Positions 176-41,692 of a DNA stretch of 64,000 bases are shown here, in pieces; positions within the stretch are counted from its first letter, which is position 1, and every line of letters begins with the position of its first letter. Both the position numbers and the translations under genes were made by a program. Source of the DNA: Gillisia mitskevichiae (GTDB taxonomy: Bacteria > Bacteroidota > Bacteroidia > Flavobacteriales > Flavobacteriaceae); assembly GCF_003634585.1 (NCBI RefSeq), contig NZ_RBLG01000002.1:496001-560000 (forward strand). The letters run 5' to 3'. The notes beneath the pieces are model-generated. The model saw only the letters and a list, made by a program, of their open reading frames with translations, had not been told where the DNA came from and ran no database searches.

Positions 176-1510
176 TTAGTTGAATTCGTTTATAGCTTCA
201 CTTAGATCATATACTTTAGTATTCTTGAACTTGTTCTCTAGGATACTACTTCCAGCTGCAGAACGATATCCTCCTGCACAATGAACCACAATTGGTTTAT
301 CTGTTGGAATGCCATCTAAGTTATCTCTTAGTTCATTTAAAGGTGAACCAATTGCTTTATCGAAGATCTTACCTTCAGCAATTTCCCCTTCATTTCTAAT
401 ATCTACAATGGTATAATTATCTAGATTGTTTTTGAAATCTTTTAGATCTAACTCATCTGAAGAGTTTGAAACCTCCTTAGATAAAGTCACAAATGCCATC
501 ACTTGCTTTTCATATCCAATTTTAACTACTCTACTTAAAATTTCATCTATATCATCTACACTATCTACTACTATATAAAAGGCTTCATTAGGTTCTATTA
601 TTGCTCCTAACCAAGTCTCGAATTTTTGAGTTGGTGTACTAGCCATGATGTTAATGCTATTAAAAAGGTGTGCTTTTTTGAAGCTTTCCTGCTCTCTAAC
701 ATCTACTTTAATAATGCTGGAATCCAGTTCATTCACATTCAACCTAAGATCTATACCCTTAGACTTATTTACATTGTCTGCACCTTTTTTATTGATGTCT
801 ACATTAAAACCAAAATAAGATGGTATAAATGGTTGATCTTTTAATATTTCAGCTAAAAATTCTTCTTCTGTTTGCTTTTGAAATGCCCAGTTTCCTCTGC
901 GTTCGTTCCCTAAAGTACTAGAAGAATCGCTACTCATATTCTTTCCACATAAAGATCCTGCACCATGGGCTGGATAAACAATCGCATCGTCTGGAAGATC
1001 ATTGAACTTGTTCTGGATAGAATCGTACATATCTTTAGCAAGTTCTACTCTTTTTGCGGTCATGTTTCCAACCGATTCACGTAGATCTGGTCTTCCCACA
1101 TCTCCAATAAATAAAGTGTCTCCCGTAAACAAAACTGTTTCTTTTCCTTCTTCAGCAACTATAGTAATACTATCTGGAGAATGTCCTGGAGTATTAATAG
1201 CTTTAAATGCAACATCTCCCATCTTTAATGAATCTCCATTATCGAAGGACTTATGCTTATAATCTGCGCCCAATAGTTTACTCACATAAATATCGGCTCC
1301 AGTTTCTTCACTAATCTGTAAATGACTACTTACAAAATCTGCATGAGGATGGGTTTCAAAAACCGCAACGATCTCTGCATTTTCTTGTTCAGCATATTTA
1401 TAATAAGGCATTGGATCTCTACTAGGATCTACTAAGGCCATTTTACCGTTACTTACAATTGCGTAGGAATAATGTGCCAATGGGGCATCGTTAAATTGTT
1501 TTACTTTCAT
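176..1510 (-). CDS. CstB-like persulfide dioxygenase / rhodanese fusion (MBL fold)
   Basis: An N-terminal metallo-beta-lactamase domain (about residues 1-240) carries the metal motif THPHAD (H54, H56, D58), GHSPDS, FTGDTLFIGD and a later YPAHG histidine. Two rhodanese-type domains follow. The middle one has no obvious active-site loop cysteine; the C-terminal one has HCAGGYRS with C411. Length (444 aa) and order (dioxygenase, pseudo-rhodanese, active rhodanese) match staphylococcal CstB, which oxidises low-molecular-weight persulfides and releases thiosulfate. The protein is cytoplasmic, with no signal peptide. It lies 18 bp behind the sterol-desaturase-family gene and probably shares its Crp-type promoter. 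The domain call is secure; the exact substrate is inferred from the family and from sulfur-related neighbours. Confidence 0.88.
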   Translation of the reverse strand: MKVKQFNDAPLAHYSYAIVSNGKMALVDPSRDPMPYYKYAEQENAEIVAVFETHPHADFVSSHLQISEETGADIYVSKLLGADYKHKSFDNGDSLKMGDVAFKAINTPGHSPDSITIVAEEGKETVLFTGDTLFIGDVGRPDLRESVGNMTAKRVELAKDMYDSIQNKFNDLPDDAIVYPAHGAGSLCGKNMSSDSSSTLGNERRGNWAFQKQTEEEFLAEILKDQPFIPSYFGFNVDINKKGADNVNKSKGIDLRLNVNELDSSIIKVDVREQESFKKAHLFNSINIMASTPTQKFETWLGAIIEPNEAFYIVVDSVDDIDEILSRVVKIGYEKQVMAFVTLSKEVSNSSDELDLKDFKNNLDNYTIVDIRNEGEIAEGKIFDKAIGSPLNELRDNLDGIPTDKPIVVHCAGGYRSAAGSSILENKFKNTKVYDLSEAINEFN

Positions 1511-1528
1511 CTTCTACGTTTTTTGTTA

Positions 1529-2422
1529 TTATTTTTTTTGAGTTGATTTATTTTTATTTAAAAAGGGAAACATAATTTGGCTCCCAAAATTATCCGGAAA
1601 ATCTTCATCTCCTTCAAATCCTAATTCTATATCTTTTCCATTCTTCGGAACATATGCTGAACCAAATAAATAGTCCCAGATACTTAATGATAACCCGAAG
1701 TTCATACCATAAGGATGCGCTTCTGGCAATTCTTTACTATGGTGCCAAATATGCATTTTTGGGTTGTTTAGTATGTATCCTAAAAAACCATAGTTCCATC
1801 CTACATTGGCATGATTAAGATGTCCTATAAATACCGAGAACATATAGATCACAAAGAATTCTTGGATCCCAAAACCTATCATGGCCAGAGGTATATACTG
1901 TACTGTTTTATAAATTATGGTTTCCATAAAATGAAACCTGAATTGAGCTGCAAATCCCATTTCCTTTACACTATGATGTATCTTATGGAACTCCCATAAT
2001 TGCGGAATTCTATGCAACTGCCTATGTACATTCCACTGAATAAAATCGGCTACCACAAACATTATTAGTAATTGAACACCAACAGACAAATTTTGAACAT
2101 TGATAGCCACCAAATTCTCTACACCAAATAAACCTAAAAAGTCATTGAATAATTCTACTCCTACATTAGATATTGCATTGTATCCAATAAGAGAAAAAAG
2201 AAAGAAATTAAAAATAATATAAAATGAATCTAACCAAAAACCTTTTCTAAAAGCTCCTTGTTCTTTTCTCCAAGGAATAAGAACTTCTAAAGTCCAAACC
2301 AATAATGACAATCCAATTAACCAATAGAAATAATTTGTCCATGAGGGATTGGTTATTTCTTGTACCAGATAATTAAAATATCCTGAGAACGATTCTTGTA
2401 TAATTTTTAAATACTTCTCCAA
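1529..2422 (-). CDS. sterol desaturase / fatty acid hydroxylase family membrane protein
   Basis: A multi-pass membrane protein of 297 aa with the histidine clusters of the family: H133 and H137 (NVHRQLHR), HKIHH (146-150), HLNH (201-204) and HIWHH (224-228). These would hold a di-iron centre for O2-dependent hydroxylation or desaturation of a lipid. Hydrophobic segments lie near residues 31-50, 65-82, 113-128 and 170-200. It is the first gene of a two-gene unit with the CstB-like enzyme. A palindromic operator lies about 50 bp upstream of the start. The substrate cannot be read from the sequence, and its place in a sulfur regulon is unexplained. Confidence 0.85.
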   Translation of the reverse strand: MEKYLKIIQESFSGYFNYLVQEITNPSWTNYFYWLIGLSLLVWTLEVLIPWRKEQGAFRKGFWLDSFYIIFNFFLFSLIGYNAISNVGVELFNDFLGLFGVENLVAINVQNLSVGVQLLIMFVVADFIQWNVHRQLHRIPQLWEFHKIHHSVKEMGFAAQFRFHFMETIIYKTVQYIPLAMIGFGIQEFFVIYMFSVFIGHLNHANVGWNYGFLGYILNNPKMHIWHHSKELPEAHPYGMNFGLSLSIWDYLFGSAYVPKNGKDIELGFEGDEDFPDNFGSQIMFPFLNKNKSTQKK

Positions 2423-2442
2423 CTTATTTCAAGTTTACTTCG

Positions 2443-2486
2443 CAAAAATAAACATTTGCATGCTTTAAGGAAGTAACATATGTTAC
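2443..2486 (-). promoter_or_regulatory. promoter with Crp/Fnr-type operator for the desaturase/CstB-like unit
   Basis: The perfect palindrome GTAACATATGTTAC (2473-2486) lies upstream of a reverse-strand TATTTTTG box (2443-2450) that fits the Bacteroidota -7 consensus TAnnTTTG. The palindrome centre (2479.5) is 36.5 bp from the last base of the box, which puts it near -42, a class II activator position. No -33 TTG is visible, as expected for an activated promoter. The same palindrome and spacing recur upstream of 3337 and of 6537. Binding by the Crp/Fnr protein at 6616-7248 is inferred. Confidence 0.7.
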
Positions 2487-2559
2487 ACATCTCATACTCA
2501 AGCTTAGATTAGGGAAATTAAAGCTCATTGTAGTTCTTTTTAATTAGTTTTAGAAAAGT

Positions 2560-3255
2560 CTATTCGTAAAACTCGGCTACCTCATCAAGCTTTTTTCTTT
2601 GAATATCTGGAACATAAGCCGGCTCTTTAGCATAACCTATGGGTAATAATAAATAAGGTCTCTCATTAGAGGGGCGTTCCAATACTTTAGTGAGAAAATT
2701 CATTGGGCTTGGAGTGTGGGTTAAAGTCACCAAACCAGCATTATGAATGGCACTTATCAACATCCCGCATGCTATTCCCACAGATTCATTAACATAATAA
2801 TTATTATGCTTGGATCCCTTTTCATCTAATTCATATACTTTTTTAAATATAACGATTAACCATGGGGCTTCCTCTAAAAATGGCTTTTCCATAGTGGTTC
2901 CCAAAGGTGCCAGATCTCTAAGCCAACTTTCGCTCATCCGTCCAGAGTAGTTCTCCTCCTCCTCTACCTCCGCAGCTTCTCTAATCTTCGATTTTAATAC
3001 TGAATTTGAGATGGCACAAAAAATCCAGGGCTGTTTGTGTGCTCCAGAAGGAGCAGTAGATGCTGCTTTAATAATGTTTTCTATCACTTCCTTAGGCACT
3101 TCTTTTTCAGAAAAGTCCCTTACAGAGCGTCGTTTATCTAACCATTTCAAAAACTCCTGACTCTTCTCTATCATTTTATCTTTAGAAAGAGATTCTGTTT
3201 TGTGTAAAGTATGTCTGTAACCGCTAATTATTATTTTATTTTCTTCCTTATTCAT
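2560..3255 (-). CDS. iodotyrosine deiodinase-like nitroreductase-fold flavoprotein
   Basis: A 231-aa nitroreductase-fold protein. FMN-binding features are RRSVRDF (42-48) and PSGAHKQPW (69-77). The insertion that closes over the substrate carries E99, Y103 and K124. Their spacing (E+4=Y, Y+21=K) is the same as Glu157/Tyr161/Lys182 of mammalian iodotyrosine deiodinase, whose triad clamps the halotyrosine zwitterion. Reductive dehalogenation of halotyrosines is therefore the best guess, ahead of a generic nitroreductase. There is no membrane anchor, as in bacterial homologs. It sits on the reverse strand, divergent from the gene at 3337. The palindrome at 3284-3297 is between them but is spaced for the forward promoter. 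Confidence 0.8.
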   Translation of the reverse strand: MNKEENKIIISGYRHTLHKTESLSKDKMIEKSQEFLKWLDKRRSVRDFSEKEVPKEVIENIIKAASTAPSGAHKQPWIFCAISNSVLKSKIREAAEVEEEENYSGRMSESWLRDLAPLGTTMEKPFLEEAPWLIVIFKKVYELDEKGSKHNNYYVNESVGIACGMLISAIHNAGLVTLTHTPSPMNFLTKVLERPSNERPYLLLPIGYAKEPAYVPDIQRKKLDEVAEFYE

Positions 3256-3283
3256 TTAAACTGATCGGTTATTTAAGAGTTGT

Positions 3284-3327
3284 GTAACAAAGGTCACATA
3301 TATTTTTGTACTGCTCCCATATATTTG
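3284..3327 (+). promoter_or_regulatory. promoter with Crp/Fnr-type operator for the DoxX/DsrE unit
   Basis: GTAACAAAGGTCAC (3284-3297) is one mismatch from the perfect palindrome. The forward-strand box TATATTTG (3320-3327) ends 36.5 bp from its centre, exactly the spacing at the other two sites. A second forward box, TATTTTTG (3301-3308) with TTG at 3280-3282 and an 18-bp spacer, would be a constitutive-type promoter overlapped by the operator. The operator could thus switch between two start points. A start from the second box would fall only a few bases before the ATG at 3337. Confidence 0.6.
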
Positions 3328-3336
3328 CTGATCTAA

Positions 3337-3687
3337 ATGGGATATACAAATTACATAGGCTGCTTTCTGCTAATAATCTTTATAGCAAAACTAATTTCTG
3401 TAGATGCTAAAATTATAGAATTTACTTTTGAAAATGATTTTATATCTCATGTAAATCCAAATTGTAAGAAATCTCAATTTAACGACTCAAATTCAACTTC
3501 TAATCTTTCTTTAGAAAATCAACAGCCTATTCATCTTTTAAATTATTTATGCTCTGCTCCTTATAACTTAGAGCTATTTACTTGGGAAGATCTAATTATC
3601 TTAGATTATCAGCAAAGTATAAGTTATAGAGTAATATCATTTTCTTCCAATTATCCTAAAAAGCTTTATCCACCACCAAAAGTTTAA
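3337..3687 (+). CDS. small exported or membrane-anchored protein, PPP tail
   Basis: A 116-aa protein with an N-terminal hydrophobic segment (about residues 8-22), then a polar stretch with two cysteines (in NPNCKK and NYLCSAP), ending in LYPPPKV. The plan (short hydrophobic start, Cys, terminal prolines) resembles the small Bacteroidota proteins called HYC_CC_PP, often found beside transport genes. I cannot give it a function. It precedes the DoxX and DsrE genes by 77 bp and is probably the first gene of that unit. No other in-frame ATG lies in its first 100 codons, so the start is taken at 3337 even though the predicted transcript start is only a few bases upstream. Confidence 0.55.
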   Translation: MGYTNYIGCFLLIIFIAKLISVDAKIIEFTFENDFISHVNPNCKKSQFNDSNSTSNLSLENQQPIHLLNYLCSAPYNLELFTWEDLIILDYQQSISYRVISFSSNYPKKLYPPPKV

Positions 3688-3764
3688 TTCATCTTTTTTA
3701 TAACATTTTTTTTACTCATTAGCACCTTTGGTCTTTTGAGGAACTCAATTAATTATAATTAAAT

Positions 3765-4175
3765 ATGAAAACAGAAATTTTGGTTAGCAAAAACTCTTTA
3801 ATTTTATTTAGAGTGATGTTAAGCGGTATTTTTTTGGTAGCAAGTTTTAGCCATTTATTAAACTTACAAAAAACGCTACTACGTATAGAGCAGGCAAGAT
3901 TCAAAGGAATTGCTCATTTTTTTGGAGAACCAAAAATAATGGTCATTGCTTCTGGAATTGTTATGTTGATAGCTGGTTTTAGTCTTCTTATAGGATATAA
4001 AACAAAATGGGCGGCTATTTTACTTTGCGCTGTACTTATCCCTATTACACTTACAATCCAGGTAGGACAAATAACTACTCTTGGACCTTTATTCAAGAAC
4101 ATAGCCATTTTAGGAGGGCTCCTGTTTTTTATTTTAAATGATTTTAACTACAACATTAAAACAAACAATTTATGA
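3765..4175 (+). CDS. DoxX-family integral membrane protein
   Basis: A 136-aa protein with four hydrophobic segments (about residues 12-30, 58-76, 82-98, 108-124), the size and layout of DoxX proteins. Some DoxX proteins are subunits of thiosulfate:quinone oxidoreductase and others are linked to thiol or oxidative stress, so a role in sulfur redox at the membrane fits the context. The stop overlaps the ATG of the DsrE-like gene by 4 bp (ATGA), so the two are translationally coupled. Confidence 0.75.
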   Translation: MKTEILVSKNSLILFRVMLSGIFLVASFSHLLNLQKTLLRIEQARFKGIAHFFGEPKIMVIASGIVMLIAGFSLLIGYKTKWAAILLCAVLIPITLTIQVGQITTLGPLFKNIAILGGLLFFILNDFNYNIKTNNL

Positions 4176-4588
4176 AAACTATAATCTTAAGTATTTTCAC
4201 TGTAATCATTTCATTATTTAGCCTGCAAGCGAATGCACAAGACAGGCTAAGCAAAAACAATTATGTAGTTCTTACCAGTAAGATCCCACAACTAAAACCA
4301 ATTTTATTAACCGCAGATGCTCTTGAGCAGGAAGATGGAAATAACTATGGAGATTTCCAAATCATCATTTGTGGAAAGACTGTAGAAGATCTTAAAAACA
4401 AAGATCTAATGCATGATTTTATACATAAGGCTGAAGCACAAAAAGTAAAAATCGTGGTGTGCGGATTTTCATTGAAGAAATTCAAAATAGATGAAAATGA
4501 AATTCCGGAAGAATTAGAAGTTGTACCAAATGGTATTTTATATGATTTTCAACTTCAGAAAAAAGGATATAGGAGCTTGGCTTTATAA
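4172..4588 (+). CDS. secreted DsrE/DsrF-like protein
   Basis: A 138-aa protein with a signal peptide (about residues 1-22, cleavage after NAQ) and a compact alpha/beta domain like DsrE, with the segment FQIIICGKTVEDL and then KIVVCGFSLKKF. Cysteines in IICGK and VVCGF are candidates for carrying sulfane sulfur. DsrE proteins take part in sulfur transfer, and the periplasmic location pairs with DoxX in the membrane. It is coupled to DoxX by a 4-bp overlap and followed by a strong terminator. Confidence 0.7.
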   Translation: MKTIILSIFTVIISLFSLQANAQDRLSKNNYVVLTSKIPQLKPILLTADALEQEDGNNYGDFQIIICGKTVEDLKNKDLMHDFIHKAEAQKVKIVVCGFSLKKFKIDENEIPEELEVVPNGILYDFQLQKKGYRSLAL

Positions 4589-4601
4589 GGCTTATAAAGT
4601 A

Positions 4602-4635
4602 AAACCCCTCTTTATTTTAGTATAAGGAGGGGTTT
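4602..4635 (+). terminator. intrinsic terminator after the DoxX/DsrE unit
   Basis: A perfect 9-bp stem, AAACCCCTC with GAGGGGTTT, spans a 16-nt AT-rich loop 13 bp after the DsrE stop. It can also serve the reverse-strand methyltransferase gene that ends at 4713. Confidence 0.75.
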
Positions 4636-4712
4636 AATAATTATAATTGGTAAGTCATTTAAGTATAAGATAATATCCAAGTTTCTACAGATATTAGATT
4701 TATTACCTCTAT

Positions 4713-5336
4713 TTATTTTTTCTGAAACTTACAAAAAGTAAAGTTCTGTAAACTTCCTGAAGGAGTTGGGTGATCTATGTTTTTGCCTTCAATAAACGTG
4801 AAAGTATTTGGAATAACTGCCTTAAGTTGTTCTATAGAATACTGCTTAATCTCTATACCGCTACATTTTGTAGGCCCGTTTTCAGAAAAAGTCCCAAGAA
4901 TTAAAAATCCGTTTGGTTTTATTGCTTGTTGCATGGTATCCAAGTATTTACGAATATCCTCTTCTGAAGTCAAAAAATGAAATGCAGCACGATCATGCCA
5001 GAGGTCATAAGAAATAGAGGGCTTAAAAGTTGTAATATCAGACACTATCCAGGTAACATCATCGGCTTTTTGTCCTAATCTCTCTTTAGCTCTATTAATA
5101 GCATTTTCAGAAATATCCAACACATTCACATTGGTATATCCTAGAGAAAGCAAGTTATCTGCCAAGAAACTGTCTCCACCACCTATATCAATAATTTGAG
5201 AATCTTTTGCTAACTGAGTGGCGTTGATCGAATTTAAGGAAGTTACAGGCACGGGCTGATACCAGCTTACTTCCTGTAACTTTTTGGTATTATAAATAGT
5301 TTCCCAGTGCTTCTTTTTAGATTCAACGTGATCCAT
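4713..5336 (-). CDS. class I SAM-dependent methyltransferase
   Basis: A 207-aa Rossmann-fold methyltransferase. The SAM-binding motif IIDIGGGDS is near residues 64-72, followed by NVNVLDIS (motif II) and DLWHDRAAFHFL (motif IV region). Its size resembles small thiol/thiopurine or TehB-type methyltransferases. It is the last gene of the TauE-rhodanese-methyltransferase unit, 9 bp after the rhodanese gene. The acceptor is unknown. A sulfur compound such as sulfide or a thiol is a reasonable inference from context only. Confidence 0.8.
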   Translation of the reverse strand: MDHVESKKKHWETIYNTKKLQEVSWYQPVPVTSLNSINATQLAKDSQIIDIGGGDSFLADNLLSLGYTNVNVLDISENAINRAKERLGQKADDVTWIVSDITTFKPSISYDLWHDRAAFHFLTSEEDIRKYLDTMQQAIKPNGFLILGTFSENGPTKCSGIEIKQYSIEQLKAVIPNTFTFIEGKNIDHPTPSGSLQNFTFCKFQKK

Positions 5337-5345
5337 ATTTATAAT

Positions 5346-5726
5346 TTATTTTGAAGAATTCTTCCAACCTGCATACCCACCTTTTAAGTCGTATATCTTA
5401 GTAAATCCCAGTGCAGCCAATTTTTTTGAAGCTTTCCCACTTCTATTACCACTTTGACAATACACATATATTGGTTGTTCTTTATCATACTCTGTAAAAC
5501 AAGTGATGAACTGAGGATCGAAAAAATCGATATTTACCGAATTCTTAATATTTCCAGCATTATACTCATTTTCTGTTCTAACGTCTACCAAAGCAACTTT
5601 ACCTTCAGAAATTTCTTCTTTAAACTCTGTTGCATCTAAAACCGTGATCTCTTTTATACTTTGAGCTTTCAAACCAAAAATAGAAGCAAATAATCCCATA
5701 ATAATAACTAATTTTAATTTTGACAT
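5346..5726 (-). CDS. secreted single-domain rhodanese
   Basis: A 126-aa protein with a signal peptide (about residues 1-21, ending GLKAQ) and one rhodanese domain. The active-site loop is YCQSGNRSG with C90, and the domain ends with the usual GGYAGW motif. It would move sulfane sulfur in the periplasm. It lies 10 bp after the TauE gene and 9 bp before the methyltransferase, forming a three-gene unit. Confidence 0.88.
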   Translation of the reverse strand: MSKLKLVIIMGLFASIFGLKAQSIKEITVLDATEFKEEISEGKVALVDVRTENEYNAGNIKNSVNIDFFDPQFITCFTEYDKEQPIYVYCQSGNRSGKASKKLAALGFTKIYDLKGGYAGWKNSSK

Positions 5727-5736
5727 ATCTTAAATT

Positions 5737-6537
5737 TTAAGCGCTTATTTCTTTATATATAATATATACACCCATTACTAATACGAACCAGCCAAAAGCT
5801 TTTTTAAGCTTCTTACCATCTATAAATTTATTTAAATACATACCTATAAATATCCCTATAACAGATAAGCCAGTAAAGATAAGTAAGAACACCCAGTCTA
5901 TCTCCATATTCTGTATATCTCCAATAAAACCTATTAAAGACTTAATGGCTATAATTAAAAGGGAAGTTGCTACAGCCCTTTTCATTGGTAATTTAGCCAA
6001 TAATACCAAAGCTGGAATTATTAAAAACCCTCCTCCAGCACCTACAATACCAGTAAGTAAACCAACTCCTACTCCTTCTAAAATTATTAATGGATAATTG
6101 TAAACTGTTTTTTCTTCAACATCACTTTCTACCCTTTTATTTAAGATCATAGAAATTGAAGACACTACCATTATAATGGCAAAAAAGAGCATAATACCTA
6201 TGTTCTTAGTTACTTCAAATCCTGCAACACTAAATAAAACATCTGGGATGGCTGGCACCAAATACATCCTGGTAGCATAGACCGTAATAAAGGCAGGTGC
6301 TGCAAAAACAAAAGCTGTTCTTAAATCTACCTGTTTTCTCCTAATATTCTTGATTGCTCCAACCAAAGAAGTGGCACCAACAACAAATAAGGAATATGCA
6401 GTTGCCGTGACTGGGTTTACTGCCAATAAATAAACTAAAATCGGTACCGTGAGGATAGAACCTCCTCCACCAATTAAACCTAATACAAGTCCTATTACTA
6501 AAGCGCCTAAGTAACCTAAGATTTCGATAATACCCAT
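5737..6537 (-). CDS. TauE/SafE-family sulfite or organosulfur exporter
   Basis: A 266-aa membrane protein with about eight hydrophobic segments in two similar halves. Each half begins with the family's glycine-rich motif (GLIGGGGSILTVPIL near residue 20 and GIVGAGGGFLIIPAL near residue 160). TauE proteins export sulfite, sulfoacetate or related anions. In the staphylococcal cst operon a TauE is encoded with CstA and CstB, which parallels this cluster. It is the first gene of its unit, with the operator-promoter just upstream. Confidence 0.88.
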   Translation of the reverse strand: MGIIEILGYLGALVIGLVLGLIGGGGSILTVPILVYLLAVNPVTATAYSLFVVGATSLVGAIKNIRRKQVDLRTAFVFAAPAFITVYATRMYLVPAIPDVLFSVAGFEVTKNIGIMLFFAIIMVVSSISMILNKRVESDVEEKTVYNYPLIILEGVGVGLLTGIVGAGGGFLIIPALVLLAKLPMKRAVATSLLIIAIKSLIGFIGDIQNMEIDWVFLLIFTGLSVIGIFIGMYLNKFIDGKKLKKAFGWFVLVMGVYIIYKEISA

Positions 6538-6557
6538 TATTATTTTTTAGAATAGTG

Positions 6558-6601
6558 CAAATGTATTGCGTCTACTTTCCTTATACAGTAACATTGGTTA
6601 C
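6558..6601 (-). promoter_or_regulatory. promoter with Crp/Fnr-type operator for the TauE unit
   Basis: The palindrome GTAACATTGGTTAC (6588-6601; perfect GTAAC/GTTAC half-sites) is centred 36.5 bp upstream of the last base of the reverse-strand box TACATTTG (6558-6565). Spacing and half-sites match the site before 2422. It lies 51 bp upstream of the TauE start and just past the 3' end of the Crp/Fnr gene. Confidence 0.75.
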
Positions 6602-6615
6602 ACACCTAATTCATT

Positions 6616-7248
6616 TTAAAGATCTATTACTTTAATGCTGTTCCTGTTAAGTGCAATAGTTCCTTTTAACTCTAATTTTTTTAATAATCTAGAGATCACT
6701 ACCCTAGATGTGTGCAGATCGTAAGCTATTTGTTGGTGTGTTATTTGTACCAACTCATTTTGATTTATCTTAGCTTTATCTCTAAGATATTTCAATAAGC
6801 GCTCATCCATATTCAAAAATGCGATGGTATCTATAGTATCTAGCATTTCAGAAAGTCTTGTGTGATAACTTTCAAACACAAAATTCATCCAACTTTTATA
6901 TTTCGAGGTCCATTCTTCCATCTTCTCAATAGGAATCATGATTAATTTAGTTGGCAACTCTGCCACAGCACGTATTTCACTTTTGGTGTGTCCTAAGCAG
7001 CATGAAAGCGTCATAGCGCAAGTATCTCCTCGCTCTAAAAAATAAAGCAGCAATTCGTCTCCATCTTGATCTTCGCGCAATATTTTAATAGCCCCACTTA
7101 TCAATAAAGGCATAGAAGTAACGTGATCCCCTATTTCTATTATTCTTTCGTTCTCTTTAAACTCTTTAATAATTCCTACTGTGGAAATTTCTTCTAAAAG
7201 CTCCTCTTCAAAAACAAACGAATAAGCATCAAATACTTCTTGTACCAT
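6616..7248 (-). CDS. Crp/Fnr-family transcription regulator with a Cys cluster
   Basis: A 210-aa regulator with an N-terminal cyclic-nucleotide-binding-like beta barrel (about residues 20-115), a long dimer helix and a C-terminal winged helix with HTH (QIAYDLHTSRVVISRLLKKL, about 168-187). It lacks the N-terminal FNR iron-sulfur cysteines. The barrel instead has C77, C83 and C84 in DTCAMTLSCCLG, near the position of the cAMP pocket, which could react with sulfane sulfur or another oxidant. It lies next to the TauE unit. GTAAC-N4-GTTAC-type palindromes before three nearby units are its likely targets. No copy is seen upstream of its own start. Confidence 0.88.
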   Translation of the reverse strand: MVQEVFDAYSFVFEEELLEEISTVGIIKEFKENERIIEIGDHVTSMPLLISGAIKILREDQDGDELLLYFLERGDTCAMTLSCCLGHTKSEIRAVAELPTKLIMIPIEKMEEWTSKYKSWMNFVFESYHTRLSEMLDTIDTIAFLNMDERLLKYLRDKAKINQNELVQITHQQIAYDLHTSRVVISRLLKKLELKGTIALNRNSIKVIDL

Positions 7249-41614: not shown

Positions 41615-41692
41615 TGGTCGGGGTGGCAGGATTCGAACCTGCGGCCTCCTGCTCCCAAAGCAGGCGCGATAACCGGGCTACGCTACACCCCG
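41615..41692 (-). tRNA. tRNA-Pro (anticodon TGG)
   Basis: Reverse-strand cloverleaf: acceptor CGGGGTG pairs with CACCCCG, the anticodon stem CCTGC/GCAGG encloses the loop TTTGGGA with anticodon TGG, and the T-arm reads GCAGGTTCGAATCCTGC. The 3' CCA is encoded (41615-41617). It is intact and still joined to its own upstream promoter region, so the insertion rebuilt its 3' end. Confidence 0.97.
41617..41632. repeat. attachment site, tRNA side
   Basis: GTCGGGGTGGCAGGAT overlaps the 3' acceptor arm and part of the T-arm of tRNA-Pro and equals 34310-34325. Recombination between the two copies would excise a 7.3-kb circle and leave the tRNA whole. Confidence 0.85.

Follow-up and report, generated by a model that had tools for sequence, protein, structure and literature searches.

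Among the described regulators of bacterial sulfide and persulfide metabolism, SqrR/BigR sense through cysteines, and FisR is of the sigma-54 type. FisR is shown activating polymerase in the legend of Figure 1 of PMC8148161, and the same paper assigns CstA, CstB, SQR and the repressor CstR to the cst operon of Staphylococcus aureus. For Flavobacteria, which are placed among the marine thiosulfate-oxidising bacteria in PMC12345210, the open-access literature that we searched yielded no sulfur regulator. Here we analyse a stretch of 64,000 nucleotides (hereafter the window) of Gillisia mitskevichiae, Flavobacteriaceae (contig NZ_RBLG01000002.1, positions 496,001 to 560,000), in which promoters of a cluster of sulfur-related genes share an operator-box arrangement close to a gene for a Crp/Fnr-family regulator (6616-7248). 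Judged from sequence, it is highly probable that they belong to a real, family-wide regulon under class II control by this adjacent protein. No account of the regulon was found in the open-access literature searched, a prior description in subscription papers being possible.

A preliminary description of the window had reported three identical operator-promoter modules, with palindromes at 2473, 3284 and 6588 whose centres each lie 36.5 bp from the last G of a TAnnTTTG box. Direct reading confirmed these positions: in all three modules, which occupy both strands, the gap between palindrome and box is 22 nt, the distance from centre to last G is 36.5 bp, and the box is directed towards its own unit. 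It is the geometry that is identical and not the sequences, since the second site has a degenerate half and both the N4 spacers and the boxes differ. Operator 1, a GTAAC-N4-GTTAC palindrome (GTAACATATGTTAC, 2473-2486, minus strand), serves the unit of the fatty acid hydroxylase and a CstB-like protein through the -7 box TATTTTTG (plus coordinates 2443-2450, minus strand, last G at 2443). Operator 2 (GTAACAAAGGTCAC, 3284-3297, plus strand), with one mismatch in its proximal half, is followed by the box TATATTTG (3320-3327, plus strand), and operator 3 (GTAACATTGGTTAC, 6588-6601, minus strand), between the regulator gene and tauE, is followed by TACATTTG (plus coordinates 6558-6565, minus strand, last G at 6558). 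These three are the only palindromes in the window with at most one mismatch to GTAAC-N4-GTTAC.

The palindrome by itself was discarded as evidence, its frequency being at chance level: with up to two mismatches it was observed 17 times in the window against 17.15 expected, and with up to one mismatch 116 times in the genome against 113 for the reversed pattern. When palindrome and box are combined at spacing 22, allowing up to two mismatches, the genome contains 11 matches against two for the reversed pattern, and only two exact palindromes in the genome lie 8-38 bp from an exact box, both of them in the window and both at 22. Commonness at random places, which the preliminary description had named as evidence against its proposal, is thus true of the palindrome alone and untrue of the palindrome plus box. 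A rough post hoc estimate, with TAnnTTTG at 0.0007 per position, puts the chance of three palindromes sharing one of 31 spacings at 8e-8.

Comparison with related sequences brought out the motif, its spacing, its targets, its link to the regulator and the conservation of the regulator's cysteines. The best 80 of 281 loci found around regulator relatives (L043-L122, from Gillisia, Salegentibacter, Christiangramia, Salinimicrobium, Zunongwangia, Aequorivita and other genera) contain 175 exact palindromes, and TAnnTTTG stands at spacing 22 in 102 of their 350 orientations, compared with at most two orientations at each remaining spacing between 0 and 60. One-mismatch palindromes in the same loci give 20 cases at spacing 22 and two at 33, and 76 of the 80 loci carry a site. 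All three window sites recur within Gillisia (L043-L045), where operator 1 is kept and the position of operator 2 is retained, its proximal half being degenerate in all four copies seen; the site before tauE has orthologues additionally in L046 and L061. An absence of the motif before the same genes in relatives, raised earlier as a possible objection, was therefore not encountered. On a wider scale, 297 of 397 genomes of the family have a pattern match at spacing 8-38, and among the 150 matches listed (more exist) spacing 22 is found in 118, 21 in 11 and 23 in 5. In a second sample, a phylum-wide draw of 395 genomes, spacing 22 accounts for 25 of the 36 matches listed from other families of the order or class versus one of the 20 listed from other classes, which indicates that the device reaches beyond the family within the class, with only background beyond.

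The textbook position of class II activators, as known for CRP and FNR, is -41.5. In the Flavobacterium psychrophilum start-site map of PMC9723704, the sigma-A box TAnnTTTG lies at -12 to -5, so that its last G is -5 and the palindrome centre falls at -41.5. Window geometry and this published box position together place the operators, operator 1 included, at the predicted class II centre, and with the spacing peak they uphold the class II geometry proposed earlier. The same placement, taken from another genus, predicts transcription starts at about 2438, 3332 and 6553 for promoters 1-3. Flanking letters in 181 unique sites give t-GTAACnnnnGTTAC-tG, with T before the palindrome in 144, T after it in 118 and G next in 118, and the right flank is not the mirror of the left. 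The flanking TG would sit at -34/-33, which fits an operator running into a partial -33 element.

The occurrence of sites follows that of the regulator. When regulator presence is defined as a match to the window protein at 1e-40, 324 of the 397 family genomes have it and 73 do not; the former contain 689 pattern matches at spacing 8-38 versus 140 for the reversed control, and the latter 14 versus 13. At least one exact match is present in 288 of the 324 genomes with the regulator versus nine of the 73 without. In the 26 genera with both kinds of genome, those with the regulator have more matches in 20, fewer in two and equal numbers in four (p 1.2e-4); all these statistics are post hoc, the genomes are related, and kinship is allowed for in this within-genus test only. 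Exact sites also cluster near the regulator: the 1.52 Mb around it hold 102 of them, where by a rough calculation the genome-wide density would give 0.7.

Outside the family, 41 of the 57 genomes of other families have a regulator match at 1e-15, and the recognition helix goes with the motif. In a table tallied by hand for the 30 genomes whose locus was fetched, a 22-spaced site occurs in eight of nine genomes with an RVV-helix regulator retaining CC, versus one of 17 with a REV/REA helix (p 5e-5); regulators of the ARVVV/GG type have it in none of four. Control by the adjacent Crp/Fnr protein, as suggested in the preliminary description, is thus supported both by co-occurrence, also within genera, and by the helix type that tracks the motif. 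Most REV-helix relatives in other families of the class keep C77 and C83, and nearly all are without 22-spaced GTAAC sites. Operator and helix may have changed together in evolution, a suggestion that, as part of the wider sensor-branch reading given below, we offer with slightly more doubt than conviction. As an altered operator for the REV-helix regulators, a single candidate at the class II position was seen, GTGATATAAGTCAC in L231, which is too little to build on.

The regulator (6616..7248, minus strand; helix TSRVVISRLLK) belongs to the Crp/Fnr superfamily: it combines a sensor domain like those binding cyclic nucleotides (PF00027, E 8.1e-11) with a C-terminal helix-turn-helix of Crp type (PF13545, E 1.1e-8), each scoring above its cut-off, and its AlphaFold2 (AF2) model matches CRP/NtcA-type folds. 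By the NCBIfam equivalog it is not CRP (59 bits vs a cut-off of 266). FNR proper has four cysteines for its 4Fe-4S cluster, three of them N-terminal; the only cysteines here are the three at 77, 83 and 84, and the definition of FNR does not apply. Each of the three is invariant in 81 of 81 aligned sequences; one search peptide contained Cys77, which biases that column, with no such bias for 83 and 84. They lie in a loop that we take to be in the place of CRP's phosphate-binding cassette. The AF2 model has a mean predicted local distance difference test (pLDDT) score of 83, dropping to about 60 over residues 71-90, hence no conclusion is drawn on cysteine geometry. The closest PDB sequence match, 3dv8 (E 1.5e-17), has cysteines aligned with positions 77 and 83. 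Among 27 more distant relatives in the family (L249-L275, stretches of 3.6 kb or less each), C-x5-CC is kept in 22; L249, L266, L271 and L275 keep Cys77 only, and L251 is without Cys83. The regulator is not the only Crp-type protein of its genome, which has four HTH_Crp_2 matches.

Three units follow the predicted promoters. Behind operator 1 lie a membrane protein of the fatty acid hydroxylase/sterol desaturase family (1529..2422, minus strand; PF04116, E 3.7e-26) and a metallo-beta-lactamase fused to rhodanese domains, as in CstB (176..1510, minus strand; PF00753, PF00581; PDB 3r2u, E 4.4e-52), whose residues include HPHAD, Cys188 and Cys411 and which is probably a persulfide dioxygenase/sulfurtransferase. 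Operator 2 precedes, on the plus strand, a small protein of 116 aa with no family match (3337..3687), a DoxX family membrane protein (3765..4175; PF07681, E 2.2e-8) and a DsrE/DsrF-like protein (4172..4588; PF02635, E 4.6e-6). On the minus strand, operator 3 precedes a TauE/SafE family exporter (5737..6537; PF01925, E 1.8e-46), a single-domain rhodanese (5346..5726; PF00581, E 1.8e-24) and an S-adenosylmethionine-dependent methyltransferase (4713..5336; PF13649, E 4.9e-13). By eye, the DsrE/DsrF-like protein and the rhodanese have signal-peptide-like N-termini. A nitroreductase-family gene (2560..3255, minus strand; PF00881) lies between the units inside the cluster; no box in register was seen by eye on its side, and it was excluded from the regulon. 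A single tRNA gene was detected in the window, tRNA-Pro (tgg) at 41615-41692 on the minus strand.

Further candidate members, beyond those of the preliminary description, lie outside the window in the same genome. A perfect palindrome with TTTG in register (box GTTATTTG) precedes a YeeE/YedE pair at C2:492196, 3.8 kb to the left of the window, and a site at C2:878757 (box TACTTTCG) precedes genes for a cytochrome of SoxA/TsdA type, which bears two CxxCH motifs, and for a porin of OprD type. Two sites with one mismatch precede cytochrome bd subunit I (C2:801084; 204 bits, below the equivalog cut-off of 968) and, at C2:923098 (L040:3098), a small Cys-containing protein with a TonB receptor. The latter gene pair stands behind a perfect site in the distant genome G651 (E 1.8e-14 and 5.6e-273). 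From sequence motifs and by eye, we take this TonB receptor to be probably of the copper type and a gene near C2:925901 (L040:5901) to be a CusA-like RND protein with a copper label. The site at C2:923098 obeys the 22-bp rule; the exact palindromes at C1:586057 (L038) and C2:925901 (L040) have no TAnnTTTG at 22 and were not counted. One-mismatch look-alikes at C1:1273671 and C2:110776, inside open reading frames (ORFs), and two-mismatch look-alikes at C1:336569 and C4:129733, near genes without an evident sulfur role, were taken as chance.

Targets in relatives widen this picture. In the 80 loci, 175 target sites, in which palindrome and box combined show no more than one mismatch (the equality with the 175 exact palindromes is coincidental), have as first panel gene TauE in 62, a CstB-like protein in 24, fatty acid hydroxylase in 16, rhodanese in 13, the small protein in five, YeeE in three, Crp/Fnr in two and others in 50, the last including SQR-like flavoproteins, peroxiredoxin, cytochrome bd and cytochrome c proteins. 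A panel name, for example 'CstB-like', denotes the best match to a panel protein and not orthology. As these loci had been chosen for the regulator, 84 sites picked by motif only were also read: 64 of the family, which are the gap-22 matches among those listed from the first down to G093 (matches at other gaps were deliberately set aside; the listing is in no known order and more matches exist), and 20 of the 25 gap-22 matches from other families in the class. The downstream gene was assigned in one simple way, by scoring nearby ORFs on their length and distance, and two of the 84 sites received none. At the 64 family sites it was TolC in 20, CstB-like in nine, TauE in seven, SulP in six, thioredoxin in five, the small protein and cytochrome c in three each, rhodanese, peroxiredoxin, fatty acid hydroxylase and DUF983 in two each, SQR in one and none in two; at the 20 sites of other families, CstB-like in six, TauE in five, SQR, SulP, rhodanese and cytochrome c in one each and others in five. 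The TolC and SulP labels come from a Pfam scan of one protein of each kind, which the remaining members matched at E <=3e-155 and <=1e-181, respectively. By a strict list (CstB-like, TauE, SulP, SQR, rhodanese), sulfur genes come first at 39 of the 84 sites. The sulfur regulon of the preliminary description is therefore supported by sulfur genes behind many sites; the TolC-type targets, the largest single class among motif-picked family sites (L137, L141 and L147 among them), had escaped it. Genes that by eye look like HlyD and RND come after TolC in the three loci inspected. The idea that TolC sites are owed to a separate distant regulator relative (type B, L249-L275) was dropped because the genomes G027, G254, G311 and G115, all with TolC sites, show just one 1e-40 match, and this is of the window's type.

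From these data we infer that the Crp/Fnr protein would bind tGTAAC-N4-GTTACtG palindromes centred at -41.5 and, by class II contact, would activate rather than repress Bacteroidota-type sigma-A promoters with a TAnnTTTG box. The regulon would handle sulfide, sulfane sulfur and thiosulfate, with persulfide oxidation by the CstB-like enzyme, sulfur transfer by rhodanese and DsrE, export by TauE and import by YeeE/YedE, together with the SoxA/TsdA-like cytochrome and the cytochrome bd oxidase. The signal would probably be reactive sulfur species that modify the Cys77/Cys83/Cys84 loop of the sensor domain; that these cysteines sense reactive or sulfane sulfur is suggested by their conservation, their place and the content of the regulon, and we put it slightly below even odds. 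Several observations weigh against parts of this scheme. Four of the 80 loci (L052, L058, L066 and L071) lack a site, and an exact match is missing from 36 of the 324 regulator-bearing genomes and present in nine of the 73 others. Of the 13 class-level genomes with a 22-spaced site, two (G613, G620) have no regulator match at 1e-15 and two (G403, G490) have a match that is not helix-typed. The start positions derive from another genus. L271 and L275, with C77 only, lie beside the same palindromes, so that recognition of the DNA does not depend on the full triad, and the triad may not be the sensor. Finally, 'sulfur only' is too narrow, given TolC at 20 of 64 sites and the TonB receptor site in the own genome.

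This last point bears on the strongest rival explanation, namely that protein and sites are as proposed and the signal is not reactive sulfur, being instead redox or disulfide stress, copper, nitric oxide or low oxygen, with the sulfur genes as one output among others. TolC-type proteins, peroxiredoxins, thioredoxins and cytochrome bd behind sites would suit it, as would the putatively copper-type TonB receptor, and three cysteines could bind metal too. We nevertheless judge it unlikely, as the commonest targets beside the regulator are TauE, CstB-like proteins, fatty acid hydroxylase and rhodanese, and in the 27 more distant relatives YeeE/YedE adjoins the regulator in 22 and TauE in 17. Less credible still is a repressor role for the Crp/Fnr protein, with the -33 element blocked by its site until sulfur brings relief, in the manner of CstR, SqrR or BigR. 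The TG at -34/-33 does bring the operator up to the -33 region. Repression is also the commoner scheme, to judge from PMC8148161, in which CstR, SqrR/BigR and CsoR are given as sulfide-specific repressors. However, the distance to the -7 box stays rigid from family to family, as contact with polymerase demands, where a mere blocker would tolerate variation, and -41.5 is where CRP and FNR activate; repression is accordingly improbable.

It is very improbable that the sites are read by another Crp/Fnr paralogue, with the neighbouring gene as a mere bystander. The several HTH_Crp_2 matches in the genome, and the more distant relatives that occur in the family, supply candidates, but the paralogue at C2:307581 has a 1e-40 match in only 38 of 397 genomes, against the 297 with pattern matches, the other two, whose distribution was not searched, by eye resemble receiver-Crp fusions and have different helices, and co-occurrence with the window regulator holds inside genera. 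Three chance look-alikes in an AT-rich window, for which the chance-level frequency of the palindrome alone might speak, can be set aside almost entirely, being contradicted at family scale by the spacing peak and the regulator link over hundreds of genomes.

The fixed operator-box rule makes the regulon listable from sequence in hundreds of genomes and brings into view a candidate for a new sulfur-sensor family. It could be that this Crp/Fnr branch, new to the papers found, is a direct persulfide/polysulfide sensor and activator working through a C-x5-C-C switch, a reading for which support and doubt are close, with doubt a little ahead. In that event, the switch would sit in the former cyclic-nucleotide pocket, the protein would be the Bacteroidota counterpart of CstR, SqrR and FisR, and the regulon would couple sulfur oxidation to the bd oxidase and efflux pumps. 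The operator-box rule also provides a natural example in which a recognition residue (Val/Glu) goes with the operator. The members outside the window, the TolC targets and the cysteine triad are additions to what the preliminary description contained.

In comparison with known systems, the regulator shares its fold with E. coli CRP, and its palindromic site and centre at -41.5 with the class II promoters of CRP and FNR. It differs from FNR in having three cysteines in the sensor loop instead of four, and from CRP in a Val where CRP has Glu181; its half-site GTAAC and the Bacteroidota sigma-A box of its promoters set it apart from the E. coli CRP and FNR systems. PDB entry 3dv8, with 28% identity by Foldseek, is the Crp/Fnr protein EUBREC_1222 of Eubacterium rectale, a member of another phylum, and the entry title states no function. 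Like the cst operon as described in PMC8148161, the locus combines a CstB-like metallo-beta-lactamase-rhodanese enzyme with sulfur-transfer genes under sulfur-related control. Unlike cst, it would be controlled by a Crp/Fnr protein at -41.5 rather than by the CsoR-like repressor CstR, has several scattered promoters, and belongs to a flavobacterial regulon that adds YeeE/YedE, a SoxA/TsdA-like cytochrome and cytochrome bd. No CsoR-family CstR was present among the ten cluster proteins scanned (176-7248), the rest of the genome not having been searched for CsoR. Like SqrR/BigR (ArsR family) and FisR, the regulator would govern sulfide and persulfide oxidation genes; it may have sensing through cysteines in common with SqrR/BigR, and would be an activator as FisR is. 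It differs from them in protein family and promoter type. The regulon resembles the cst, sqr and FisR systems in purpose and is a member of none.

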